Assembly: GCA_036399815.1 (NCBI GenBank)
Contig: DASWMK010000142.1
Span: forward strand, 1-43,429
From: Acidimicrobiales bacterium
GTDB lineage: Bacteria > Actinomycetota > Acidimicrobiia > Acidimicrobiales > DASWMK01
Direction: 5' to 3'
DNA length: 43,429 bases
The notes below the pieces were generated by a model. The model searched no databases and was not told where the DNA came from. It saw nothing but the letters and a program-made list of their open reading frames with translations. The position numbers and the translations under genes are program-made. Below are positions 9,344 through 21,753 of this stretch, piece by piece. Within the stretch, counting starts at the first letter, position 1; the number at the start of each line of letters is the position of its first letter.

Positions 9344-12300
9344 TCACCGGCCCGTGCGGTCGAGGACCTCGGCGAGGCGCTCGGCGAGGGTGTCGACGTG
9401 GGGCGGCTGGAGGACGGTGCCGTGGAACCCGGTGATCCGCTCGGTGGCCACCCCGCCCGTGGCGAAGCGGCCCCAGCCGAGGGTGGGGTCGTCGCCGTCG
9501 GACCGGTCGCCCCGCAGGAGGGTCAGCCGGCCCGGGTAGGGCGGCGGCGCGTAGGCCAGCGCGGCCCGCAGGTTCGACCGCTGCACCCGCTTGATCGTGC
9601 TCAGCGCCACGCCGTCGCGGCCGGGGCCCGAGCGGCGCTGGCGGCCGTAGCGGGCCCGCGTCCACGCGGCGACGAGGGCCGACGCCCCCGGCACGGTCTC
9701 GAGCTCGGTGGTCAGCCGCTTCACCCGGCGGCGCAGCCGGCCCCGCCTGGTCGGGGGCAGGAAGCCGAGCACGCCGGGGGCGAAGCTCTCGACGACGACG
9801 GTGGCCGCCACCTCCTCGCCGGCGGCGACCAGCTGGCGGGCCATCTCGAAGGCGATCTGGCCGCCCAGGCACACGCCGGCCACCAGGTACGGGCCGCGGG
9901 GCTGCACCGCCCGCACCTCGTCCACGTAGTGGGCGGCCATGTCCTCGATCCGGGTGTCCGGCTCGTAGCCGGCGAGGCCGCGGGGCTGGAGGGCGTAGAG
10001 GGGCCGGTCGGGGTCGAGGCGGTCGACCAGGTGGCGCACGTTCAGGCCGGCGACGAGGTGCAGCGGCGCCTTGGTCCCCTGCGTCCTGATCGGGACCAGC
10101 GACGCCCGCTCCCCGCCGGCGGTCGCGTCGCGGAGCAGCGGGGCCAGCCGGGCGACCGTGGGCGCCTCGAACAGCGTGACGAGCGGGAGCCGCCGGCCGA
10201 CGAGGTCCTCGGTGCGGTGCATGACCCGCACGGCGAGCAGCGAGTCGCCGCCCAGCCGGAAGAAGTCGTCGTGCACGCCGACCCGGTCGACGCCGAGGGC
10301 CTCGGCCCACAGGCCGGCGAGCGCCTCCTCGAGCTCGCCCGTCGGCGCCACGTACTCGTCGCCCAGCTCGGGCCGACCCGGGTCGGGGGCGGGGAGGGCG
10401 GTGCGGTCGAGCTTGCCGCTCGGCGTGGTCGGCAGCGCGTCGAGGACGACGAACGCGGCGGGGACCATGTACGGCGCCAGCCGGCCGGCGAGCCGGTCCC
10501 GCAGCTCGGGCAGGTGGGACGGCGCCCAGCCCGGCCCGGGAACGAGGTAGGCGACGAGGCGCTTCTTGCCGGGCTCGTCCTCCCGGGCGACGACGACGGC
10601 GTCGGCGACGAGCGGGTGCTCCCGCAGCGCCGCCTCCACCTCGCCCGGCTCGATGCGGTAGCCCCGGAGCTTGACCTGGTGGTCGTTGCGCCCGAGGAAC
10701 TGGAGGTCGCCGCCCGGCAGGTGGCGGGCCAGGTCGCCCTGGCGGAACATGCGGGCGCCCGGCTCGGGCGCGAACGGGCAGGGCACGAACCGCTCGGCCG
10801 TCAGCTCCGGCCGGTGCAGGTAGCCGAGCGCCACCTGGGCGCCGCCGATGCAGATCTCGCCGGGCACGCCGACGGGCACGGGCCGCAGCCTGGTGTCGAC
10901 CAGGTAGACGGCGGCGTTGGCGATGGGCCGGCCGATCGGCGGCCGGCGGGGCCACGTGGCCGGCGGCCCCTCGAGCGTGTACGAGGTGATGATGAGGTCC
11001 TCGGACGACCCGTACTGGTTCTGGAACCGGCATCCGGGCAGCCGCTCGAAGAAGCGCTGCACGGTCGGCGTGATCGTCACCGCCTCGCCGGCCGTGAACA
11101 CCTCGCGCAGGTGCGAGGGGGCGAGGTCGAGGCGGTCGACGGCGTCGGCCAGCTGCTGGAGCGGCGTGAAGATGGCGTAGAGCTGCTCGACCCGCTGGTC
11201 GACCAGCAGGCGCAGGAGCGCCTCGGGGTCGCGGCGCACGTCGCCCTCGGGGAGCACGAGCGTCCCGCCGGCGGCCCACGTGGCGAACAGCTCCTGCATC
11301 GAGACGTCGAAGCTGAGCGGCGAGAACTGGAGCGTGCGGGGGCGCTCGAGCGTGCTCGCCTCCCGTACCTGCCAGAGGACCACGTTGACGAGCGCCCGCT
11401 GGGGCACGGCCGCGCCCTTCGGCCGGCCCGTCGAGCCCGACGTGTAGATGACGTAGGCGAGGTCGTCGGGGCCGGCCGGGTTGGGCGGCGGGGTGGCCGG
11501 CTGGGCGGCGAGGACGTCGTCCATGGCGTCGAGGTGGACGACCGCGTCGGCGGTGGCGGCGTCGAGGTGGCACATGTCCGTCTGGGTCACGAGGACGGCC
11601 GCCCTGGCGTCGTCGAGGATGAAGGCCAGGCGCTCGCCGGGGTAGGTCGTGTCGAGCGGGAGGTAGGCGCCGCCGGCCTTGAAGATGGCGAGCACGGCGG
11701 CGACGAGGTCGAGGGAGCGCTCGGCGTAGACGGCCACGATGACGCCGGGTCCGACCCCGAGCGAGCGGAGGTGGTGGGCCAGCCGGTTGGCCCGCTCGTC
11801 CAGCTGGGCGTACGTGAGCGAGGCGGCCCCGTGCACGGCGGCGACGGCGTCGGGCGTGCGCGCCGCCTGCTCGGCCACGAGGCGGTCGACGGTGCGGTCG
11901 GCCGACCAGTCCCTCGCCGTGTCGTTCAGCTCGACCAGCACGTGGTGGCGCTCGGCCTCGGTCAGGAGGTCGACGTCGTCGACGGCCACGCCGGGGTCGG
12001 CCACGAACGCGTCGACCACGTTCAGGAAGTGGCCGGCGGCGGCCGCCCGCAGGCGCTCGTCGAACACCCCGGCGTTGAACGTCAGGTCGACCGCGGCCGA
12101 CCCCGACCCGTCGAGGTCGTGGACCTGCACGCCGAACGTGTGCCGCCCGTCGTTGGCCGACCGGGGGACGAACCGGGTCGTCGTCGGCGCGCCGTCGAAG
12201 GGCGGGAACGAGATCGGCAGGTAGTTGAGCATCACGTCGGTGACGGCCGGGTCGCCGGCGTTGCCGGTGCCGGGCGGCGAGTTGGCGATCACCTCCCACA

Positions 12301-13243
12301 GGCCCCGGAGGGCCTCGGCCGTGAGCGAGGCCATGGTCTCGCCGTCGCCCACCTCGAGGCGCAGCGGGTACACCTGCTGGACGAGGCCGATCGTCGCCCT
12401 CGTGGCCCGGTCCCGGTTGTGGAACGGGAGCCCGATCGACAGCTCCCGGGTGCCGCTCACCCGGTACAGGTAGGCGGCGAGGATGGCGCACCACATGCCG
12501 AGCACCGAGAGGTCGGCGCTGAGCGACCGGAAGCCGTCGGTGGCGGCGAGGTCGCGCAGCCGGCGGGTCCGCTCGGGCCCGAGGTCGAGCGTCACCCACC
12601 GCTCCCCGGTCGTGCGCCGGGCCCGGCTCACGCCGTAGGGCTCGAGCGGCTCGTGCTCGCGCTCGAGCACGGCCCGCCAGTGGGCGTCGGCCCGCCGCCA
12701 CGCCTCCGTGTCGCGGGCGGCCGCCTCCCTGGCGACGTGGTCGGCGAAGGACGGCAGCGGCGGACGTCCGGCGGGGCCGCGGGCGTACGCCTCGGCCGTC
12801 TCCCGGTACACGAGCAGGCACGACCAGCCGTCGTGGAGGAGGTGGTGCAGGTTCAGGTACCACGCCGTCCGGTCGGGGCCCAGGTCGACCAGCACCGAGT
12901 CGAACAGCCGCTCGTCGAGGCGCGACGGGCGCCCGGCCCGGTCGGCCGCCCACGCCGGCAGGTCCTCCGCGTCGAGGCGCACGACCGGCGTGCGGTGGGC
13001 GAGCTCGGGCAGCACCCGCTGGACGGGCACGCCGTCGACGGTCTCGACGACCGTGCGCAGCGCGTCGCTGCGGTCCACCACCGACTGGAAGGCGGCGGCG
13101 AAGCGGTCGGGGTCGAGGCGGCGCTCGACCACGAACGTGGTCGCGTTGTCGTAGCAGGCGACGTCGCCGGCGAGCTGCTGGCCGGCCCAGAGGACGAGCT
13201 GCCCGTTCGTCAGGTTGCAGCCCGGCGCGACCCGTGTCGCCAT
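9344..13243 (-). CDS. Single-module NRPS: condensation, adenylation, carrier protein, thioesterase
   Basis: 1299 aa. The condensation domain (about 1-430) has the active-site motif HHLLHDG near 133-139. The adenylation domain (about 455-950) shows YTSGSTGRPKG (A3), the SFDVSMQE binding-pocket strand, NQYGSSED (A5), MFRQGDLAR (A7), KLRGYRIEPGE (A8) and PSGKLDR (A10 Lys). The carrier domain has LGGDSLLAV with the phosphopantetheine Ser near 999. The thioesterase (about 1040-1299) has GVCLGG, a Cys nucleophile near 1124 in place of the usual Ser, and His near 1282 in PPHVD. By eye the ten-residue pocket code reads DVQYFAQIIK, closest to proline codes. An N-terminal C domain implies a donor delivered by another carrier, perhaps the ACP at 16980. 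A Shine-Dalgarno-like GGGAGGG precedes ATG 13243. Confidence 0.93.
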   Translation of the reverse strand: MATRVAPGCNLTNGQLVLWAGQQLAGDVACYDNATTFVVERRLDPDRFAAAFQSVVDRSDALRTVVETVDGVPVQRVLPELAHRTPVVRLDAEDLPAWAADRAGRPSRLDERLFDSVLVDLGPDRTAWYLNLHHLLHDGWSCLLVYRETAEAYARGPAGRPPLPSFADHVAREAAARDTEAWRRADAHWRAVLEREHEPLEPYGVSRARRTTGERWVTLDLGPERTRRLRDLAATDGFRSLSADLSVLGMWCAILAAYLYRVSGTRELSIGLPFHNRDRATRATIGLVQQVYPLRLEVGDGETMASLTAEALRGLWEVIANSPPGTGNAGDPAVTDVMLNYLPISFPPFDGAPTTTRFVPRSANDGRHTFGVQVHDLDGSGSAAVDLTFNAGVFDERLRAAAAGHFLNVVDAFVADPGVAVDDVDLLTEAERHHVLVELNDTARDWSADRTVDRLVAEQAARTPDAVAAVHGAASLTYAQLDERANRLAHHLRSLGVGPGVIVAVYAERSLDLVAAVLAIFKAGGAYLPLDTTYPGERLAFILDDARAAVLVTQTDMCHLDAATADAVVHLDAMDDVLAAQPATPPPNPAGPDDLAYVIYTSGSTGRPKGAAVPQRALVNVVLWQVREASTLERPRTLQFSPLSFDVSMQELFATWAAGGTLVLPEGDVRRDPEALLRLLVDQRVEQLYAIFTPLQQLADAVDRLDLAPSHLREVFTAGEAVTITPTVQRFFERLPGCRFQNQYGSSEDLIITSYTLEGPPATWPRRPPIGRPIANAAVYLVDTRLRPVPVGVPGEICIGGAQVALGYLHRPELTAERFVPCPFAPEPGARMFRQGDLARHLPGGDLQFLGRNDHQVKLRGYRIEPGEVEAALREHPLVADAVVVAREDEPGKKRLVAYLVPGPGWAPSHLPELRDRLAGRLAPYMVPAAFVVLDALPTTPSGKLDRTALPAPDPGRPELGDEYVAPTGELEEALAGLWAEALGVDRVGVHDDFFRLGGDSLLAVRVMHRTEDLVGRRLPLVTLFEAPTVARLAPLLRDATAGGERASLVPIRTQGTKAPLHLVAGLNVRHLVDRLDPDRPLYALQPRGLAGYEPDTRIEDMAAHYVDEVRAVQPRGPYLVAGVCLGGQIAFEMARQLVAAGEEVAATVVVESFAPGVLGFLPPTRRGRLRRRVKRLTTELETVPGASALVAAWTRARYGRQRRSGPGRDGVALSTIKRVQRSNLRAALAYAPPPYPGRLTLLRGDRSDGDDPTLGWGRFATGGVATERITGFHGTVLQPPHVDTLAERLAEVLDRTGR

Positions 13244-13277
13244 CCGCCCTCCCTCCCCGCGGCGATGACGCGGGCGG

Positions 13278-13283
13278 ACGGTA
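13278..13283 (-). promoter_or_regulatory. Candidate -10 box of the NRPS gene
   Basis: TACCGT on the minus strand, 34 bases before the NRPS ATG, fits the actinobacterial TAnnnT -10 pattern and would leave a leader of about 28 nt holding a GGGAGGG ribosome-binding site. No convincing -35 is visible. It lies in the short divergent region shared with the ABC transporter. Confidence 0.35.
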
Positions 13284-13298
13284 CCACCGGGCGGTGGC

Positions 13299-13304
13299 TA
13301 CGCT
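13299..13304 (+). promoter_or_regulatory. Candidate -10 box of the ABC transporter gene
   Basis: TACGCT, ten bases before GTG 13315, matches TAnnnT. Transcription would start only a few bases before the GTG, so a nearly leaderless mRNA is expected; this was used to choose the start. Confidence 0.35.
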
Positions 13305-13314
13305 CCCCGAGCCA

Positions 13315-15066
13315 GTGGGCCGAGCCGAACCAGCCCGCGCCTGGCGGACCCTCCGGCGGGTGGTGGACGTGCCGCGCCGGCGCGTCGCGCTGCTCGGCGC
13401 CACCGCCGCGCTGGCCGGCGTGGCCGACGCCGCCGTGCTCGTGCTCGTCGTCCGCATCGCCGTCGCCGTCGTGGGCGGCGACCGCTCCTCCACGGCGCTC
13501 GGGCCGCTCGACCTCGACCGGTCCACCCCGGCCCTGTTCGGGCTGGCCGCCGGCCTCGCCGTCGCCCGCCTGCTGCTGTCGGCCGCGTCGGCCTGGCTGA
13601 TGGCCGACCTCGCCGCGACCGCCCTCGGCCGCATGCGCAAGCGCACGTTCGCCTGCTTCGTCGAGGCGTCGTGGTCGACCCAGGCGGCCGAGCGGGACGG
13701 CCACCTCCAGGACCTGATGACCACCCACACCACGCGGGTGGCGCTCTCCCTCGTCAGCCTCGCCGCCGGCCTGGTCGCCCTCCTCAACCTCGTCGCCCTG
13801 CTGCTGACCGCGTTCGTGGTCGACCCGATCGCCTCGCTCGTCGCCATGGCCGGCACGGCCCTGCTGTTCGTGGCGCTGCGCCCGCTCGTGCTCGCGGCCA
13901 AGGCGCAGAGCGCGGCGGCCAACGCCGCCAACCTCGAGTACGTGGAGGCGGTGGCCGAGAGCGTGGCCATGGCCGAGGAGACCCACGCGTTCGCGGCCGG
14001 CCCGGCGCTGCGCCGGCGGGTCGACCGGCTGGTCGACGCCGTCGTGGCCCGCGTGCTCCGCACCCAGGCCCTCGGCCGGCTGTTGCCGTCGCTCAACCAG
14101 TCCCTCGCCGTCGGGCTGGTGCTGGCCGGCCTGCTCGCCGCCCACCTCGCGGGCGGGGCCGAGGCCGCCTCCCTCGGCGCCGTCGTCCTCCTCCTGGTGC
14201 GGACGCTCACCTACAGCCAGGGCCTCCAGTCGGCCTACCAGCAGGTCCTCGAGGTGGTGCCCTTCGCCGAGCGGCTGGGCGACGAGCAGGCCCGCTACCG
14301 GCTGGCCGCCGTGCCCCGCCGGGGCGCGCCGCTCGGCCCCGTCCGTTCGGTCGCCCTCGACCACGTGTCGTTCCGGTACCGGCCCGGGCCGCCGGTGCTC
14401 GACGACGTGTCGTTCACGGTGGCGGCGGGCGAGACGGTCGGGATCGTCGGGCCGTCGGGCGCCGGCAAGTCGACCCTCGTCCAGCTGCTCGTGCGGCTCC
14501 GGCCGGCGAGCGAGGGCGCCGTCCTGGTGAACGGGGCCGACGCCTGGTCGTTCTCGCCCGACGACTGGTGCCGCCGGGTCGCCTACCTCCCGCAGGCGCC
14601 CCGCCTGTTCGGCGGGACCGTCGCCGACAACATCCGCTTCTTCCGCGACGGCGTGGGCGACGACGCGGTCGAGGCCGCGGCCCGCCTGGCCCACGTGCAC
14701 GACGAGATCGTCGCCTGGCCCGACGGCTACCGGACGCCGGCCGGGCCGCGGGGCGGCGAGCTCTCCGGCGGCCAGCGCCAGCGCATCTGCCTGGCCCGCG
14801 CCCTGCTCCTGCGCCCTGACGTGCTCGTGCTCGACGAGCCGACCAGCGCGCTCGACCCCCACTCGGAGGCGCTCGTGCGGGACACCCTCCTCGCGCTCCA
14901 GGGCACGATGACCGTGTTCGTCGTCGCCCACCGCCTGACCGCGCTCACGAACTGCGACCGGATCATGGTCCTCGGCGACGGGCGGGTGCAGGCCTTCGAC
15001 CGGGCGGCCGACGTGGCCGCCTCGAACCGCTGGTACCGCGACGCCGTGCGCCTCTGGGAGGCCTGA
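13315..15066 (+). CDS. ABC exporter, fused permease and ATPase
   Basis: 583 aa half-transporter. Six hydrophobic helices fill about residues 20-300. The nucleotide-binding domain follows with Walker A GPSGAGKST, Q-loop YLPQAPRLF, signature LSGGQRQR, Walker B VLVLDEPT and the H-loop VVAHRL. This is the type IV exporter fold (MsbA/lipid and peptide exporters), which works as a homodimer. It is transcribed divergently from the NRPS and lies one base before the PaiB/KtzT-like gene, so it is probably the export and self-resistance component of the cluster. The start is uncertain: GTG 13315 was chosen from the upstream -10-like box, GTG 13294 is also in frame, and the frame is open from 13234. Confidence 0.9.
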   Translation: MGRAEPARAWRTLRRVVDVPRRRVALLGATAALAGVADAAVLVLVVRIAVAVVGGDRSSTALGPLDLDRSTPALFGLAAGLAVARLLLSAASAWLMADLAATALGRMRKRTFACFVEASWSTQAAERDGHLQDLMTTHTTRVALSLVSLAAGLVALLNLVALLLTAFVVDPIASLVAMAGTALLFVALRPLVLAAKAQSAAANAANLEYVEAVAESVAMAEETHAFAAGPALRRRVDRLVDAVVARVLRTQALGRLLPSLNQSLAVGLVLAGLLAAHLAGGAEAASLGAVVLLLVRTLTYSQGLQSAYQQVLEVVPFAERLGDEQARYRLAAVPRRGAPLGPVRSVALDHVSFRYRPGPPVLDDVSFTVAAGETVGIVGPSGAGKSTLVQLLVRLRPASEGAVLVNGADAWSFSPDDWCRRVAYLPQAPRLFGGTVADNIRFFRDGVGDDAVEAAARLAHVHDEIVAWPDGYRTPAGPRGGELSGGQRQRICLARALLLRPDVLVLDEPTSALDPHSEALVRDTLLALQGTMTVFVVAHRLTALTNCDRIMVLGDGRVQAFDRAADVAASNRWYRDAVRLWEA

Positions 15067-15067
15067 C

Positions 15068-15685
15068 GTGTACCCGCCCCCCGCTTACCACGTGACCGAC
15101 CCCGAGCTCGCCCACCGGGCCATCGACGCCTTCCCGCTGGCCGCCGTGGTGTCCACCGGCCCGGACGGCCTCGTCGCCACCCACATCCCGCTCCTCGTCG
15201 AGCGCACCGGCGGGGCCGGCACGCTCATCGGCCACCTCGACCGCGAGAACCCGCACGTGGGCCTGCTCGACGGCGCCGACGTCCTCGCCCTCTTCCGCGG
15301 GCCCGACACCTACATCTCGCCCACGACCTACGTGACCCGGCAGCTGCCGACGTGGAACTACGTGTTCGTCGAGGCGCGGGGGACGGCCCGCCTGGTGGAG
15401 GACCCCGAGCGGGTGCGGTCGTTCCTCGTGCGCCTGATCGACCACGTCGAGCCCCGGCCCGGCGGCTGGGCGCTGGCCGACGACGACCGGCGGGTGCCGC
15501 CGCTGCTGCCCCACATCGTCGGCGTGGAGATCCCGCTGCGCTCGATCGAGGGCCGGTTCAAGTTCTCCCAGGAGAAGGTCGAGGCCGACCGGGAGCGGGC
15601 CGCGGAGCGGATGCTCGGCGTCAGCTCGCCGGACGGGCGGCGCTTCCTCCACGAGGTGCTGGGCTACGACGGCCGAGCCGGGTGA
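15068..15685 (+). CDS. PaiB-fold protein, candidate heme-dependent piperazate synthase (KtzT-like)
   Basis: 205 aa split-barrel protein of the family annotated as FMN-binding negative transcriptional regulator (PaiB). It shows STGPDGLVATHIPLL (28-43), GHLDRENPH (55-63), YISPTTY (82-88), PTWNY (94-98) and the C-terminal GRFKFSQEK. KtzT, which makes the N-N bond of piperazic acid from N5-hydroxyornithine with heme, belongs to this family and is encoded beside an ornithine N-hydroxylase. Here the convergent neighbour is such an N-hydroxylase and an NRPS is close by, so a biosynthetic role is more likely than regulation. His56 or His63 could be the axial heme ligand; this is a guess from position. 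No DNA-binding domain is seen. The last 65 nt overlap the end of the neighbouring gene. Confidence 0.75.
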   Translation: MYPPPAYHVTDPELAHRAIDAFPLAAVVSTGPDGLVATHIPLLVERTGGAGTLIGHLDRENPHVGLLDGADVLALFRGPDTYISPTTYVTRQLPTWNYVFVEARGTARLVEDPERVRSFLVRLIDHVEPRPGGWALADDDRRVPPLLPHIVGVEIPLRSIEGRFKFSQEKVEADRERAAERMLGVSSPDGRRFLHEVLGYDGRAG

Positions 15686-16961
15686 GCAGCGACTCGACGA
15701 CGGTGCCGGCCCGGAGGGCGACCATGCTGAACGACGCCCCGTCGCTCGGCCCGTGCGTCCGCTCGGACGTGCCGCACAGGTACACCGGCGCGTCGAGGCC
15801 GCCCGTCGTCGCCACCCGGTAGTCCCGGCCGACGACCGGCCCGCCGTCCTCGTCGGTCGCCACCAGGTCGGCGAGCGGCGCCAGCGCGGCCGGGAACACG
15901 TCCTCGCGGTAGCCGGTGCAGAGGACGACGACGTCGGCCGCCACCTCCTCGCGCTCGCCGGTGTGGAGGTGCTCGAGCACGAGGCGGTGGGTGCCGGCCA
16001 CCGTCGACGCACCGACGACGCGCCGGCTGGTCAGCACGTCGACCCGGCGGACGCCGGCCACCAGGTCCTCGTACAGCCTGCGGTAGAGCACGTCGGCGGC
16101 CTGGGCGTCGACCACGCCGAAGTTCGTCGGCCGGGCCTCGGCGAGCACGGCCCGGCGGGCGGCGGGGCCGAGGGCGTGGAACCGGTCGACGAAGCCCGGG
16201 TGGAAGACCTCGTTGCTGAACTGGCACAGGTCGACGTGGCGGAACCCGAGCGTCCGGTGGACCGAGACCAGCCGGGCGCGCGGGAAGGTCGCGTGCAGGT
16301 GGGCGAGGACCTCGACCGCGCTCTCGCCCGAGCCGACGACGGCGAAGCGCAGGGCGGCGTCGCGGTCGAGCCCGTCGACGGCGGTCAGGAACGCGGAGGA
16401 GTGGAACGCCGTCGGCCCGGCGAGGGCGGCGAGCTCGGGTGGGACGTGGGGCGCCCGGCCCGAGGACAGCACCAGCGCCCTCGCCGCCACCGTCCCGTCG
16501 CTCGTCTCGACGGCCAGCCGGTCCCGGCCGAGCGGCCGGACGGCGACCACCTCGGTGCCATAGCGGACGTACCCGGCGAGCTGGCCGGCGGCCCAGCGCA
16601 GGTAGTCCGACCACTCCAGCCGGCTGACGGCACCGCCGGCCGCGCCGAGCAGCAGCTCGCCGAACTCGTAGAGGCGCCCGTGCTCGTGGAGGTAGTTGAC
16701 GAACGTGAACCGGCTCCGCGGGTTCCTCGGCGTGGCGAGGTCGCGGAGGAAGTGGTGCTGGATGTCGGTCTCCCGCAGCAGCATCCCGGGGTGCCAGGCG
16801 ACCTCGGGCGCCCGCTCGAGGAAGCGCACCCGCCCGAGCGGCGGTCCACCGCTCGCCTCGGCCAGGTCCTCGACGGCGCAGGCGAGGGCGATGCCGGCCG
16901 GGCCGAAGCCGGCCCCGAGCACGTCCACCTCCTCCGGTACAGTCCGCCGCGGGGCGGTCAC
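15621..16961 (-). CDS. SidA/IucD/PvdA-family amine N-hydroxylase (flavin monooxygenase)
   Basis: 446 aa. FAD-binding LGAGFGPAGIALA starts at residue 15; WHPGMLLRETDIQ and FLRDLATPRNPRSRFTFVNYL are family hallmarks; the NADPH site is VVGSGESAVEVL; VVLCTGYRED and GLLxx-type C-terminal motifs follow. Family members N-hydroxylate the side-chain amine of ornithine, lysine or diamines, for siderophores or, as in KtzI, for piperazic acid. Ornithine enzymes usually read FLKDL where this one has FLRDL, so the substrate is not certain. GTG 16961 is the longest start; GTG 16928 or 16922, the latter after GGAGGAG, would begin right at the FAD motif. It is convergent with the KtzT-like gene and diverges from the carrier-protein gene. 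Confidence 0.88.
   Translation of the reverse strand: MTAPRRTVPEEVDVLGAGFGPAGIALACAVEDLAEASGGPPLGRVRFLERAPEVAWHPGMLLRETDIQHHFLRDLATPRNPRSRFTFVNYLHEHGRLYEFGELLLGAAGGAVSRLEWSDYLRWAAGQLAGYVRYGTEVVAVRPLGRDRLAVETSDGTVAARALVLSSGRAPHVPPELAALAGPTAFHSSAFLTAVDGLDRDAALRFAVVGSGESAVEVLAHLHATFPRARLVSVHRTLGFRHVDLCQFSNEVFHPGFVDRFHALGPAARRAVLAEARPTNFGVVDAQAADVLYRRLYEDLVAGVRRVDVLTSRRVVGASTVAGTHRLVLEHLHTGEREEVAADVVVLCTGYREDVFPAALAPLADLVATDEDGGPVVGRDYRVATTGGLDAPVYLCGTSERTHGPSDGASFSMVALRAGTVVESLLTRLGRRSPAPRGGSAARPAS
16938..16943 (+). promoter_or_regulatory. Candidate -10 box of the ACP-KAS-halogenase operon
   Basis: TACAGT lies 36 bases before the ACP ATG, and the leader then contains GGGAGGGGGG, a ribosome-binding site. 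It overlaps the 5' end of the divergent N-hydroxylase gene. Confidence 0.35.
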
Positions 16962-16979: not shown

Positions 16980-17234
16980 ATGGAGCAGGTCGACACCGTC
17001 GAGGCGGAGGTCCGCGACTTCCTGGTGGCGACGTTCTGGATGGAGCCGGCGTTCGCCGAGGCCATGACCGACGACAGCGACCTCGTCGACGGCGGCGTCC
17101 TCGACTCGATGAACGTCCTCCAGCTGGTCGACTTCCTCGAGGAGCGCTTCGACTTCATGCTCGACCCCGAGGAGCTGTTCCGGCTGACCACCGTGGCGAA
17201 CATCGCCGCGCTGGTCCGCGAGAAGCTGGCATGA
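16980..17234 (+). CDS. Free-standing acyl/peptidyl carrier protein
   Basis: 84 aa, acidic, four-helix carrier protein. The attachment motif is GGVLDSMNVLQLV with Ser43 as the phosphopantetheine site; this spelling (LDSM rather than LDSL) is closer to DltC-like and NRPS-associated carriers than to fatty-acid ACP. A purine-rich Shine-Dalgarno (GGGAGGGGGG) lies upstream of the ATG. The stop overlaps the next start as ATGA, so translation is coupled to the KAS-like gene. It probably holds the substrate acted on by the KAS-like pair, the SDR and the halogenase, and may hand it to the NRPS condensation domain. Confidence 0.88.
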   Translation: MEQVDTVEAEVRDFLVATFWMEPAFAEAMTDDSDLVDGGVLDSMNVLQLVDFLEERFDFMLDPEELFRLTTVANIAALVREKLA

Positions 17235-18220
17235 CCCCCGTCGGGATCGCCGCCACGGCGACCGCCTTCCCCCCGTCGACGCGCCCCATCGCCGACATCT
17301 TCGCCGACGAGGGCGTGGACCTGCCGGGGGAGCTGGCCGAGCGCCTCGGCATCCGGGAGGTGGGGGTCGGCTCGGCGGGCGCCGACCTGGCGCTCGCCGC
17401 CGCCACCGACGCGCTGGCCGCCGCCGGAGCGGCGGGCCGGGACGTCGACGTGATCGTCGACTACACGATCCTGCCCCAGGAGTACCTCGTGCCGGTGTGG
17501 AACCTGGGCAACCGGCTCCAGCACGAGCTCGGGGCGACCAGGGCGTTCACGCTCGGGTTCAGCGGCGGCGGGGCCACCAACTTCCACGTCGCCCTGCGGG
17601 CGGCGACCGACCTGCTGCGGGCCGGCGACGGGCTGCGGACGGCGCTGCTGTTCGGCGCGGACGTCGCCATCCCCGGCAACCGGGTGGTCGAGCGCGACGA
17701 GCCCGTGACCGTCCTCGGCGACGGGGCCAGCGCCGTCGTGCTGCGGGCCGGCGAGGAGCACGACGTGGTGCTCGGCGTGGAGCTGGCGAGCGACGGCGCC
17801 TACCACGACGTGGCCCACATCCCCGGCGGCGCGCTCGCCCAGCTCGACCACGACCACGACGAGGACCTGTACCGGCTGCGGATCGACGTCGACCGGCTGG
17901 CGGCGGCGCCGACGGGCGCCACCGTCGACCGCCTCACGGGCCTGGTGCTCGACCGGGCCGGCGCCGGCCGCGACGACGTCGCCCACTGGGTCTGCCCGAA
18001 CCTGTCGGCCGCCGACCAGGACGGCTACCGGGCGGCGTGGGGGGCGGCGCCGGCGCCGGCCTGCGCGGCCAACCTGGCCGCCCACGGGCACGTGCAGGCC
18101 AACGACCTCGTCGCCAACCTCCGGGCCGTCGTGGCCGACGGGTGCGACGGCGGCGACCTCGTGCTCCTGGCCTCCCACGGGATGGGCTTCACCGCCGGCG
18201 CGGCCCTGGTGCGGCACTGA
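17231..18220 (+). CDS. KAS III-like protein lacking the active-site cysteine
   Basis: 329 aa thiolase-fold protein related to 3-oxoacyl-ACP synthase III. Aligned by eye with its neighbour at 18220, the nucleophile position reads Ala115 in SGGGATNFH. The FabH His position is Asn257 (CPNLSAADQ), and the FabH Asn position is His287 (AHGHVQAND). It therefore lacks the normal Cys-His-Asn triad and is unlikely to condense acyl groups alone. PqsB of the PqsBC heterodimer is a known precedent for a Cys-less partner of an active KAS III-like subunit. Overlap of start and stop with both neighbours supports co-translation with the second KAS-like protein. It may instead bind or transfer an acyl or amino group. 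Confidence 0.85.
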   Translation: MTPVGIAATATAFPPSTRPIADIFADEGVDLPGELAERLGIREVGVGSAGADLALAAATDALAAAGAAGRDVDVIVDYTILPQEYLVPVWNLGNRLQHELGATRAFTLGFSGGGATNFHVALRAATDLLRAGDGLRTALLFGADVAIPGNRVVERDEPVTVLGDGASAVVLRAGEEHDVVLGVELASDGAYHDVAHIPGGALAQLDHDHDEDLYRLRIDVDRLAAAPTGATVDRLTGLVLDRAGAGRDDVAHWVCPNLSAADQDGYRAAWGAAPAPACAANLAAHGHVQANDLVANLRAVVADGCDGGDLVLLASHGMGFTAGAALVRH

Positions 18221-19236
18221 TGGGCGCGCCGATCGGGATCCTGGCGGAGGCCTGCTACCTGCCGCCCACCACCAAGTCGATCGACGCCGTGTTCCGGGAC
18301 GAGGACGTGCCCGACGACCCGCTGCCCGGCGGCGTGGACTTCCGGCGGGACATCGGCATCCGGTCGATCCGGGTGGCGGACGGGGAGACGGCGAGCGGGC
18401 TCGCCGTCGAGGCGTCGCGCCGGGCCGTCGAGCGGGCCGGCATCGACCCGGAGGAGATCGACCTCGTCGTCGGGTTCACCAGCATCGCCGAGGACCACGT
18501 GGCGCCCACCTGGTCGGCGGCCGGCGTCGTCCAGCGGGAGGTCGGCGCCACCCGGGCCTTCGCCACGTCGGTCAACACCGGCGGCTGCGCCAGCTTCCAC
18601 GCCACGATGAAGGCGGCCTGCTCGATGCTGGCGGCCAGCGACGAGATGGACACGGCGCTGCTGTTCGCCGGGGACAAGGCACCCCGCCTGAACCACGCCT
18701 ACTACCCGGTCACCGTCGTGTGTGACGGCGGCAGCGCGGTCGTGCTGCGCAAGGGCCACGACCGCCGGGTGGTGCTGGCCGTGGAGACCGCGACCGTCGG
18801 GAAGCTCCACGACGTGCTCTACGCGCCCGGGTTCCCGCACCGCGACCCGTCCGACCCGTGCCGGGACCGGTGGCTGCACATGACCGGCGACTACCGCCGC
18901 TTCGGCGAGGAGGTGGTGCCCGTCAACCTGTTCATGTTCCGCCGGGTGATGCGGGCGGCCATGAAGCGGGCCGGCGTCGGGCCCGACGACATCGACGTGT
19001 ACATCTACCCGACGTTCTCGGCCTGGGACCAGCGGGCCTTCTGCGAGGGCCTCGGCATCCCGCCGGAGAAGGTGTACACGCGGGGGCTGGCCGACCACGG
19101 CCACCTCCAGGAGACCGACATGGTCCTCAACCACGTGGACGCGGAGGAGGACGGCACCATCGGGGACGGCGACCTCGTGATGCTGACCACCAACGGGGCC
19201 GGGTTCGCGTGGGGGGCCACGATCGTCCGCCAGTGA
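18220..19236 (+). CDS. KAS III-like acyltransferase with cysteine nucleophile and altered triad
   Basis: 338 aa thiolase-fold protein. Cys123 lies in NTGGCASFH, the FabH-type nucleophile. The usual His position reads Thr265 (YPTFSAWDQ) and the usual Asn position reads His295 (DHGHLQETD), so the pocket may work with a Cys/His pair arranged differently from FabH. The glycine-rich C-terminus TTNGAGFAWGA is typical of the family. The start overlaps the previous stop as TGATG and the stop overlaps the next start as GTGA. It most likely pairs with the Cys-less paralogue to acylate or condense a substrate on the carrier protein. It could also esterify or amidate a product, as CerJ-type KAS-like acyltransferases do. 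Confidence 0.85.
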   Translation: MGAPIGILAEACYLPPTTKSIDAVFRDEDVPDDPLPGGVDFRRDIGIRSIRVADGETASGLAVEASRRAVERAGIDPEEIDLVVGFTSIAEDHVAPTWSAAGVVQREVGATRAFATSVNTGGCASFHATMKAACSMLAASDEMDTALLFAGDKAPRLNHAYYPVTVVCDGGSAVVLRKGHDRRVVLAVETATVGKLHDVLYAPGFPHRDPSDPCRDRWLHMTGDYRRFGEEVVPVNLFMFRRVMRAAMKRAGVGPDDIDVYIYPTFSAWDQRAFCEGLGIPPEKVYTRGLADHGHLQETDMVLNHVDAEEDGTIGDGDLVMLTTNGAGFAWGATIVRQ

Positions 19237-20912
19237 CCGCCGCGGCCGGCGCGGGCGCCGGCGACCGCTACGACGTGGCCGTGCTGGGCAGCGGCATGAG
19301 CGGCGCGGCGCTCGCCATCGTCCTCGCCGCGCAGGGCGTGCGAGTGGTGATGGTCGAGTCCGGCGTGCACCCCCGCTTCGCCGTCGGCGAGTCCACCATC
19401 CCCCACACCTCGCTGCTCAGCTCGCTTCTGGCCGAGCGCTACGGCGTGCCCGAGCTCGACGTGATCGCCTACCCGGAGCGCATCGCCGCGGAGGTGTGCT
19501 CGACGTGCGGGGTGAAGCGGGGCTTCGGCTACGCCTACCACCGCCCCGGCGAGGAGCACGACCCGGCCGAGGGGCTGCTCGTCGGGACGAGCTCGAAAGA
19601 CGAGACGCACGTGTTCCGCCAGGACGTCGACGCCTGGCTCACGTACATGGCGGTGCGGCGGGGTGCCGACCTGCGCCAGGCGACGGTGGTCGACCGGGTG
19701 GAGGTCGACGGGGCCGGGGTCACGCTCGGCACGACCGGGGGCGACGAGCTCCGGGCCCGCTACCTGGTCGACGGCTCGGGCTTCCGCAGCGTGCTCGCCC
19801 GCACGTTCTCGCTGCGGGAGGCGCCGGCCCGCTTCGGGCACCACTCCCGCTCGCTGTTCACCCACATGGTCGACGTCGGCACGTTCGCCCCCGACACGCC
19901 GATGTCGATCCCGTGGGCGCAGACCACGCTGCACCACGTCTTCGACCGGGGCTGGTTCTGGGTCATCCCGTTCGACAACCGGGAGGGGTCGACCAACCCG
20001 CTCGTCAGCGTCGGGCTGACCGTCGACCCCCGGGTGCACCCGAAGCCGGCCGGCGTGGCGCCCGAGGCCGAGTTCCGGGCCTTCCTCGACCGCTTCCCGT
20101 CGGTGGCCCGCCAGTTCGCCGGGGCCAGGGCCGTCCGCCCATGGGTGTCGACCGACCGGCTCCAGTACTCGACGACGCGGGGGGTCGGCGAGCGCTGGTG
20201 CCTGATGTCGCACGCCTACGGCGCCATCGACCCCCTGTTCTCCCGGGGCCTCGTGAACACCCTCGAGGTCACCGCCGCGCTGGTGCCGACCCTGCTCGAC
20301 GCCCTCGACGACGACGACTTCTCGGTGGAGCGCTTCACCCACGTCGACGCCCTTCACCGGCGGGTGCTCGACTACAACGACCGCCTGGTCGCCGGCTCGT
20401 TCGCGTCGTGGGCCGACTTCGACCTGTGGAACGCGTGGCTGCGGGTGTGGGGGCTCGGCACCATCCCCGTCGAGTTCCGAATGATGAACGCGCTGGCCGA
20501 CTACACGGCCACCCACGACCCCCGCCACCTCACCGGGCCGGTCGCCGACCCCGTCTTCTCGGACTTCGAGGACCCCGACTACGGCGCCTACTTCGCCGAG
20601 GCGGTGGCGCTGATGGACGGGTTCCGCTCGGGCCGGTCGCCGGCCGGGGAGACGGCCGCCGCGCTGTTCGACCTCGGCACGCGCTACGAGATCCCGCTGC
20701 CCATGCGGGGCGACGGCCTGCACCGGGCCGGCTGGATCCCGGCCGACGACGCCATGAGCGAGCGGAGCATGGCCTTCGCCCGGGAGGGGTTCAGGTGGGC
20801 GCTCACCAACCCCGGCACCCACGACCTGTTCGGCACGACGACGACGTTCTACCGGTGGCGGGCCCGGCGGTCCGACCCGCACCTCGCGGTCGCCGGCCGC
20901 GCTCCCGGGTAG
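19233..20912 (+). CDS. Flavin-dependent halogenase-like oxidoreductase
   Basis: 559 aa. FAD-binding LGSGMSGAALA starts near residue 18. WFWVIP at 241-246 matches the WxWxIP motif that separates flavin halogenases from monooxygenases. FDNREGSTNPLVSVG (247-261) fits the Fx(n)PxxSxG motif. Lys95 in CGVKRGFGY is a candidate for the catalytic Lys that carries HOX. AVGESTIPHTS resembles the isoalloxazine loop of the family. The partner flavin reductase is not in the window. Its place after ACP and KAS-like genes suggests a carrier-bound substrate. A non-halogenating role is possible, since distant members are often misnamed. The start GTG overlaps the upstream stop. Confidence 0.85.
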   Translation: MTAAAGAGAGDRYDVAVLGSGMSGAALAIVLAAQGVRVVMVESGVHPRFAVGESTIPHTSLLSSLLAERYGVPELDVIAYPERIAAEVCSTCGVKRGFGYAYHRPGEEHDPAEGLLVGTSSKDETHVFRQDVDAWLTYMAVRRGADLRQATVVDRVEVDGAGVTLGTTGGDELRARYLVDGSGFRSVLARTFSLREAPARFGHHSRSLFTHMVDVGTFAPDTPMSIPWAQTTLHHVFDRGWFWVIPFDNREGSTNPLVSVGLTVDPRVHPKPAGVAPEAEFRAFLDRFPSVARQFAGARAVRPWVSTDRLQYSTTRGVGERWCLMSHAYGAIDPLFSRGLVNTLEVTAALVPTLLDALDDDDFSVERFTHVDALHRRVLDYNDRLVAGSFASWADFDLWNAWLRVWGLGTIPVEFRMMNALADYTATHDPRHLTGPVADPVFSDFEDPDYGAYFAEAVALMDGFRSGRSPAGETAAALFDLGTRYEIPLPMRGDGLHRAGWIPADDAMSERSMAFAREGFRWALTNPGTHDLFGTTTTFYRWRARRSDPHLAVAGRAPG

Positions 20913-20922: not shown

Positions 20923-21753
20923 ATGAGCGACGAGGCACGCACCGTCCTGGTCACCGGGGCGAACTCCGGCATCGGCCTGGCCACCGTGGTCGAGCTGGCG
21001 AGGCGCGGCTTCCGGGCCGTCGGCTCGGTCCGCTCGGAGGCCAAGGCCGCCGCCGTGCGCGAGGCGGCGAGCGCCGCCGGGGTCGACGTCGAGACCGTCC
21101 TGCTCGACGTGAACGACGCCGAGGCCTGCAAGGAGGTCGTCCCCGGGCTCGGCCCGTGGGGGCTCGTGAACAACGCCGGCTACGCCGTCACCGGCGCCGT
21201 CGAGGACGTGGAGGACGAGGAGGCCGAGGCGCTGTTCCAGACCATGGTCCACGCGCCGATGCGCCTGGCCCGGCTGGCTCTCCCGTCGATGCGGGCCGCG
21301 GGGGGCGGCCGGATCGTCAACGTCAGCTCGATCGCCGGGCGGGTGACGGCGCCGTTCGCCGGCCACTACACGGCGGCCAAGCACGCGCTCGAGGCGCTCA
21401 CCGACGCCCTGCGCATCGAGGTGGCGGGCGCCGGCGTGCGGGTCGTGCTGGTCGAGCCGGGCGGGTTCCGCACCGGCATCTGGGAGGAGTTCGAGCGGGA
21501 CATCGCCAGGCGGGAGCGGGAGGGCAGCCGCTACGTCGGCGCCTACCGCCGCTACCTCCAGGCCCAGCGCCTGGCCGAGCCGCTGATGGGCGACCCGCAG
21601 ACGTGCGCCCGGGTCATCGCCGGCGCGCTCACGACCCGCCTGCCCCGGTCCCGCTACCTGGTCGGCCTCGACGCCCAGGCCGCCAACCTGGCCGACTCGC
21701 TGACCCCGACGATCGTCAAGGACCGCTTCTACCGGCTGACGCTCGGTCTGTAG
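20923..21753 (+). CDS. Short-chain dehydrogenase/reductase
   Basis: 276 aa classical SDR. It has the Rossmann motif TGANSGIG near residue 11, NNAG, the catalytic Ser in IVNVSSIAG, YTAAK (Tyr and Lys) and the PGGFRTG segment. It probably reduces a keto group or oxidises an alcohol with NAD(P)H. Being the last gene of the ACP-KAS-halogenase run, it may act as a ketoreductase on the same carrier-bound intermediate. An internal promoter-like element could allow separate expression. Its last 38 nt overlap the 3' end of the convergent SARP regulator. Confidence 0.9.
   Translation: MSDEARTVLVTGANSGIGLATVVELARRGFRAVGSVRSEAKAAAVREAASAAGVDVETVLLDVNDAEACKEVVPGLGPWGLVNNAGYAVTGAVEDVEDEEAEALFQTMVHAPMRLARLALPSMRAAGGGRIVNVSSIAGRVTAPFAGHYTAAKHALEALTDALRIEVAGAGVRVVLVEPGGFRTGIWEEFERDIARREREGSRYVGAYRRYLQAQRLAEPLMGDPQTCARVIAGALTTRLPRSRYLVGLDAQAANLADSLTPTIVKDRFYRLTLGL

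Follow-up and report, generated by a model that had tools for sequence, protein, structure and literature searches.

Several thiolase-fold enzymes work as pairs with a silenced or altered subunit, each with its own acyl chemistry: PqsBC, PhlACB, LstA-LstB and the ketosynthase-chain length factor (KS-CLF) complexes. KS-CLF is of the FabF type and not of the β-ketoacyl-acyl carrier protein synthase III (KASIII) type. In type II polyketide synthases it couples an active subunit to a homolog devoid of catalytic residues (PMC13311259). For the KASIII-like ChlB3, a Cys113-His296-Asp301 triad is reported, with the same active site given for CerJ (PMC9573744). Here, we analysed a 43,429-nucleotide stretch of an Acidimicrobiales bacterium (DASWMK010000142.1, hereafter the window), which makes up one entire contig of a draft genome (4.16 Mb, 287 contigs), the sole genome drawn for its family. 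It encodes two consecutive KASIII-fold proteins, KS-A, which lacks the nucleophilic cysteine, and KS-B, which has it, followed by an FAD-dependent halogenase. The new observation is that this Cys-less/Cys-bearing pair is old and has been kept, together with the halogenase, in two phyla; the triad itself is known. We infer a heterodimeric acyltransferase of KASIII fold, made up of KS-A and KS-B, in a halogenated-metabolite pathway, with KS-B as the active and KS-A as the structural subunit, a reading to which we give an even chance of being correct.

In a MAFFT alignment, Ala115 of KS-A occupies the place of E. coli FabH Cys112, and KS-B has Cys123 there. The equivalent of FabH Asn274 is His287 in KS-A and His295 in KS-B, within an HGH stretch in both, and an aspartate (Asp292 and Asp300, respectively) follows five residues past this histidine to give a GH....D motif. 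The place of the FabH histidine falls on Pro256/Asn257 in KS-A and on Pro264/Thr265 in KS-B, according to the placing of one gap: MAFFT sets E. coli FabH His244 on KS-B Pro264 and the DpsC histidine on Thr265. As KS-B is without any histidine between residues 220 and 293, the FabH-type His is missing under either placing. Both the His and the Asn of the FabH Cys-His-Asn triad are absent from KS-A and KS-B, and no such triad was found elsewhere in either protein in the alignments. FabH membership was rejected on this ground.

A prior sequence-only reading had placed the two frames and their one-base overlap exactly, and its by-eye picks of Ala115, Cys123, His295 in place of the FabH Asn and the shared HGH agree with the alignment. 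Its claim that Thr265 stands where FabH has His holds as far as the FabH His is absent; the choice of Thr265 over Pro264 hangs on the one-residue gap. The residues of both proteins had further been called rearranged, and the set different from that of PqsBC. They do differ from FabH, but the residue list lacked Asp300 of KS-B and Asp292 of KS-A, part of a known acyltransferase motif, and Cys123-His295-Asp300 of KS-B is an already known set, because it is reported for ChlB3 and CerJ (PMC9573744); an unprecedented residue set is not supported. The Cys nucleophile of that set is present in KS-B and absent from KS-A, and the His-Asp pair is present in both. DpsC, ChlB3 and CerJ share the GH....D motif and the loss of the FabH Asn, and the latter two, like KS-B, also have the Cys and lack a His where FabH has one. 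The difference is that ChlB3 is described as a dimer of itself (PMC9573744), whereas the window keeps a Cys-less twin beside the active KS-B.

The trio recurs in a second phylum. A metagenome-assembled genome (MAG) of the acidobacterial class Terriglobia (JAIQFP010000005.1, locus L012) encodes orthologs of KS-A, KS-B and the halogenase in the same order as in the window, and the catalytic residues of KS-A and KS-B are identical between the two loci. Since an orthologous pair has the same residues in another phylum, and an ordinary FabH with Cys-His-Asn is also encoded on another contig of the window genome, the residue pattern is, judged by sequence, more than chance. The KS-B orthologs share six identical runs of at least seven residues, including NTGGCAS, IYPTFSAWD and HGHLQETDMVL. 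The longest run shared by the KS-A orthologs, ILPQEYLVPVWN (residues 80-91), spans the stretch aligned to E. coli FabH Phe87, which we take to be the residue reaching into the partner's pocket; a run of 12 was reached in 484/20000 shuffles, giving modest support.

Trees were calculated with 17 rows and, after addition of three OleA-family rows, with 20 rows; L014 and L016 were omitted because they nearly duplicate L013 and L015. The two A proteins, the two B proteins and G1182, the nearest single-copy relative (one Cys-bearing protein with Asn and GH....D), form one clade with support of 99/99 in the smaller and 100/98 in the larger tree. All five members carry a G..HD motif (His192-Asp193 in KS-A, His197-Asp198 in KS-B) that is absent from DpsC, CerJ, ChlB3 and E. 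coli FabH. The A orthologs group together (99/97 and 98/98), as do the B orthologs (100/99 in both trees), and the halogenases of the window and L012 group at 100/99. A recent duplication inside the window genome was rejected, joining window A with window B costing 99 log units (approximately unbiased (AU) test, p 1e-35). The separate grouping of A and B orthologs and the rejection of this joining therefore date duplication and Cys loss to before the split of the two loci. The idea of KS-A as a decaying pseudogene was also discarded, given that its frame is open and its ortholog has the same residues. DpsC, CerJ and ChlB3 lie beside the clade of the pair and G1182 (86/84 with 17 rows, 80/78 with 20 rows), and a wider group including the NF005308-type L013 and L015 (92/89 and 96/96) stands apart from the FabH, Pqs and OleA rows.

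Counting own or source genomes, matches were found in 2/298 genomes of the window order and 4/396 of its phylum (both at E 1e-25), in 1/395 of its class (E 1e-40), and in 2/399 genomes of the class of the L012 genome, the second being G1182, and 1/297 of its phylum (both at E 1e-35). The order match G173 and L013, a member of NF005308, are one and the same contig, and three further phylum matches (L005, L006 and L007) were rejected as FabH by their residues (Cys, HQ, GN). A contig scan, using an alignment of KS-B, KS-A and one distant relative as query, matched 85 stretches, six of them encoding relatives, of which one (L012) is the ortholog. More trios may exist, since the scan requires one of two short peptide patterns. 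The dating of duplication and Cys loss to before the split of the two loci points to the trio having been transferred as a unit or very patchily kept.

The PDB matches of the window halogenase include CtcP (E 1.6e-135) and PltM (E 6.2e-91). Its identity is 47% to CtcP, 34% to PltM and 43% to Burkholderia pyrrocinia PrnC, a homolog named from its operon, which is of the pyrrolnitrin type with a PrnB-like gene. The catalytic lysine is given as Lys98 in CtcP and Lys87 in PltM (PMC12400496); the conserved lysine (Lys95 in the window) and the WxWxIP motif of the class are kept in both trios. Because PrnC is reported to act on free pyrroles (PMC10770391) and PltM on phloroglucinol (PMC12400496), the window halogenase most likely acts on an electron-rich aromatic. 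No match to KS-A or KS-B at E 1e-3 was found in the stretches fetched for five other halogenase loci (L018-L022), nor any match to the halogenase in six other KASIII loci. The trio offers a compact three-gene expression target and a marker for halogenated metabolites in uncultured bacteria.

Structure models built from nine-row alignments, of good quality for input of that depth, gave a predicted thiolase/KASIII fold for KS-A (pLDDT 83.7, pTM 0.88) and similar values for KS-B (84.1 and 0.88). The VIA comparison of KS-B lists DpsC (5wgc) at Z 36.8 (rmsd 2.6, 318 aligned) and ChlB3 at 36.2 (2.6, 316). Neither PhlA, PhlC nor CerJ is among the 50 VIA entries listed for KS-B and for KS-A, which excludes nothing. 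Both proteins are thus modelled with the KASIII fold, and fold alone does not choose function.

We propose that Cys123 of KS-B, activated by His295-Asp300, would take the acyl group from an acyl thioester, most simply the adjacent acyl carrier protein (ACP) in the window and an outside CoA or ACP ester in L012. His295-Asp300 would then activate the acceptor, which may be the thiol of an ACP, a hydroxyl group or a carbon atom of a ring, and the acyl group would be passed on without decarboxylative Claisen condensation. The latter is not expected because the FabH His-Asn pair is retained in neither subunit. KS-A, which could not be acylated at Ala115, would complete the dimer and the KS-B pocket, perhaps binding donor or acceptor, and the halogenase would modify either the acceptor or the product of acylation, with an electron-rich aromatic as its most likely target. 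Acyl transfer other than FabH condensation is probably what the pair does, in line with the unusual acyl transfer suggested by the sequence-only reading. G1182 has as neighbours two β-ketoacyl-synthase genes together with genes for an adenylation enzyme and an ACP-like protein, a setting in which acyl groups would move between carriers and which we count in favour of acyl transfer by the pair.

A number of observations weigh against this proposal. The pair was found in two copies only (window and L012), and neither tree gives a star to the branch that links its clade directly to DpsC/CerJ/ChlB3. The VIA scores of KS-B to FabH chains (one at Z 36.1, rmsd 2.7, 314 aligned) are tied, within 1, with those to DpsC and ChlB3, and for KS-A FabH chains rank first (4dfe, Z 36.1; 2.6, 314) versus ChlB3 (34.8; 2.5, 306). 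The longest KS-B run, of 14 residues, was reached in 1317/20000 shuffles. The best 14-residue windows, a length fixed after the data were seen, were matched by 352/5000 (KS-A) and 303/5000 (KS-B) shuffles, and are weaker than the run test. The ACP role may be local, because no ACP gene is seen adjoining the L012 trio; over the 21 kb of L012, short frames gave three matches to an ACP-like serine motif, each of which lies inside a longer frame of another gene or overlaps one, with a pattern that cut longer frames at 200 residues. Finally, the ChlB3 mechanism is described as resting on structure, docking and hydrolysis of model thioesters, and ChlB3-related enzymes other than CerJ are said to catalyse Claisen condensation (PMC9573744).

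A bolder form of the proposal, which we consider unlikely, makes the trio a portable self-sufficient module in which the KS-A His-Asp would hold or activate the acceptor, KS-B would be the acyl-enzyme, and the acylated aromatic or enol would then be halogenated. If true, no KASIII heterodimer would precede it on the acyltransferase branch, as far as our searches reach. No description of a Cys-less KASIII twin beside a halogenase was found in the open-licence papers searched. A chlorinated carbazole cluster is reported to contain KASIII and ACP genes (PMC10100901). The kidamycin dual acyltransferase was rejected as a parallel, as it is a type I polyketide synthase matter (PMC10646177).

Equally unlikely is a PqsBC-like condensing heterodimer, in which KS-B would join acyl-enzyme and a β-keto acid through a C-C bond and the aromatic or cyclic product would then be chlorinated. 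The sequence-only reading had likened the pair to PqsBC, and the parallel of two consecutive KASIII-fold genes with one active and one nucleophile-less subunit stands (PMC4807248). Furthermore, no other biosynthetic gene is seen beside the L012 trio, which suits a scaffold-making enzyme, and the KASIII-like CqsB1 and NzsJ are reported to condense with β-keto acids too (PMC7466098). The active sites differ, however. PqsC is described with Cys129-His269 and Val299 for Asn, His-269 being needed for condensation, and PqsB as without all triad residues (PMC4807248), whereas KS-B has His-Asp and no His at the place of His-269, and KS-A is longer than PqsB and keeps His-Asp. Kinship to PqsBC is not supported, with AU p values of 0.0096 for a clade with PqsC and 0.0067 for one with PqsB and PqsC, both long branches.

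Next in order, and rather doubtful, is the arrangement of KS-A and KS-B as separate homodimers, in which A would serve for binding or scaffolding, or be a copy in decay, and B would work alone. In its favour, one Cys-bearing relative suffices for G1182, but A is kept next to B with the same residues in two phyla, and a decaying copy would hardly be expected to stay 49% identical and retain the same His, Asp and Asn.

We rank behind this, as improbable, a PhlACB-like Friedel-Crafts C-acylase, in which the KS-B acyl-Cys would acylate an electron-rich ring that a phenol-type halogenase also modifies. PhlA is reported to have Gly115 for Cys, and PhlC to use Cys88 with a His347-Asp352 diad (PMC6392133); the Cys-less partner and the His-Asp spacing of five thus resemble KS-A and His295-Asp300 of KS-B, and the halogenase is in the class of the phloroglucinol-acting PltM (PMC12400496). 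PhlACB is thus an example of ring acylation by a Cys/His-Asp subunit that has a Cys-less partner. As a difference, PhlACB requires PhlB, which joins PhlA and PhlC homodimers, and PhlC is thiolase-like (PMC6013524, PMC6392133). A Pfam scan of nine window and seven L012 proteins found no PhlB/DUF35 protein, and KS-B passes the cut-off of the KASIII C-terminal model, its thiolase match being below cut-off.

Least probable is an LstA-LstB- or OleA-like heterodimer for non-decarboxylative condensation of two acyl thioesters: LstA-LstB, reported to be functional only if co-expressed (PMC13311259), is a precedent as a heterodimer of KASIII-fold proteins, the condensation of two acyl-CoAs for lipstatin being a difference by the title of a reference in that paper. 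The OleA rows, however, keep Cys-His-Asn and fall in the half of the tree opposite to the pair. OleA Glu117 (LEPS; numbered from chain offsets, with solved structures of Glu117 mutants) lies in the stretch covered by the longest KS-A run; at its place, as aligned with OleA-family rows, A has Val and B has Ala or Thr, with Glu84 of KS-A and Glu91 of KS-B a few residues before it, and OleA-type catalysis was rejected on this ground.

In the window the trio is part of a packed plus-strand run of ACP, KS-A, KS-B, halogenase and short-chain dehydrogenase (SDR) genes, in which every start overlaps or falls 10 bases past the preceding stop; the 3' end of the ACP gene overlaps KS-A by 4 bases (Table 1). 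Neither the ACP nor the halogenase, part of the conserved unit, was mentioned in the sequence-only reading. The top NCBIfam match of the ACP is ACP_for_OlsHI, at 50.4 bits and under the cut-off of 130. The GTG start of the halogenase was chosen by us. The SDR is probably in the same operon as the halogenase in the window genome; among the L012 open reading frames no SDR adjoins the trio, and the next gene upstream of the trio encodes a ferredoxin-domain FAD/NAD(P) oxidoreductase. TTGACA-17-AATACT occurs once before the L012 trio versus a shuffle mean of 1.3, so there is no excess.

Table 1. Positions of the genes and residues discussed, in the window and in related loci.
Feature	Sequence	Position	Strand	Remarks
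ACP gene, 84 aa	Window	16980-17234	+	Ser43 in DSM; PF00550 E 3.1e-8
KS-A, KASIII-fold protein without nucleophile, 329 aa	Window	17231-18220	+	Ala115, His287, Asp292; Asn257 near FabH His place
KS-A Ala115 codon, nucleophile place	Window	17573-17575	+	Aligned to E. coli FabH Cys112; Ala in L012 too
KS-B, KASIII-like protein, 338 aa	Window	18220-19236	+	Cys123, Thr265, His295, Asp300
KS-B Cys123 codon (nucleophile)	Window	18586-18588	+	Aligned to FabH Cys112 and the Cys of ChlB3 and CerJ
KS-B His295-Asp300 codons, GH....D motif	Window	19102-19119	+	Spacing common to DpsC, CerJ, ChlB3
FAD-dependent halogenase, CtcP/PltM/PrnC class	Window	19233-20912	+	Lys95, WFWVIP at 241; PF04820
SDR	Window	20923-21753	+	PF00106 E 6e-44; starts 10 bases after halogenase
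Lys/Orn-type N-oxygenase	Window	15621-16961	-	Top NCBIfam match histamine N-monooxygenase, 146 bits (cut-off 700)
PaiB-type FMN-binding protein	Window	15068-15685	+	PF04299
ABC transporter gene	Window	13234-15066		Near the run
One-module nonribosomal peptide synthetase	Window	9344-13243	-	Condensation-adenylation-peptidyl carrier protein-thioesterase
KS-A ortholog	L012	8980-9972		49% identity to window KS-A
KS-B ortholog	L012	10001-11020		59% identity to window KS-B
Halogenase ortholog	L012	11025-12695		58% identity to window halogenase
KASIII-carrier fusion, 490 aa	L023	12718-14193	-	Annotated; Chroococcidiopsis plasmid
Halogenase gene group	L019	5980-12364		Sandaracinus plasmid
Acidobacterial cluster	L031	4223-11686		KASIII-like gene included

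Near the run, the window also encodes a Lys/Orn-type N-oxygenase, an ABC transporter and a PaiB-type FMN-binding protein; the last could be a flavin reductase serving the halogenase. The adenylation domain of the one-module nonribosomal peptide synthetase, read by eye at what we take to be the code positions, gives D-V-Q-I-F-A-Q-I-I-K, which has a proline-like look at low confidence. Rfam and tRNA scans returned nothing.

The top NCBIfam model for both KS-A (92.5 bits) and KS-B (147.1 bits) is NF005308 (PRK06840). Membership was rejected, as both scores are under its cut-off of 315, the true member L013 reaching 392.5 bits; in L013, moreover, the place of the FabH His is still held by a His, unlike in KS-B. 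L013, L014, L015 and L016, all from actinobacterial MAGs, combine the Cys and GHM...D with a His where FabH has one, a set between FabH and the acyltransferases. Scans of viral contigs with KS-B alone and with three alignments found no relative, a phage search with KS-A gave nothing, and a plasmid search returned nothing for KS-A and only distant KASIII proteins for KS-B (40 records, all <60% identity). The acidobacterial cluster L031 comprises an SDR, a lipid-A-type acyltransferase, two β-ketoacyl synthases, a KASIII-like protein, an adenylation enzyme and an ACP-like protein, and is possibly a starter-unit system holding the single-copy sister of the pair. On the Chroococcidiopsis plasmid (L020/L023), the KASIII-carrier fusion lies near a salicylate synthase and a few genes away from a related halogenase. 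On the Sandaracinus plasmid, a related halogenase sits, by annotation, behind a nonribosomal peptide synthetase gene and beside SbnB, a carrier protein, a ketosynthase, a 3-hydroxy-3-methylglutaryl-CoA-synthase-like protein and an enoyl-CoA hydratase.

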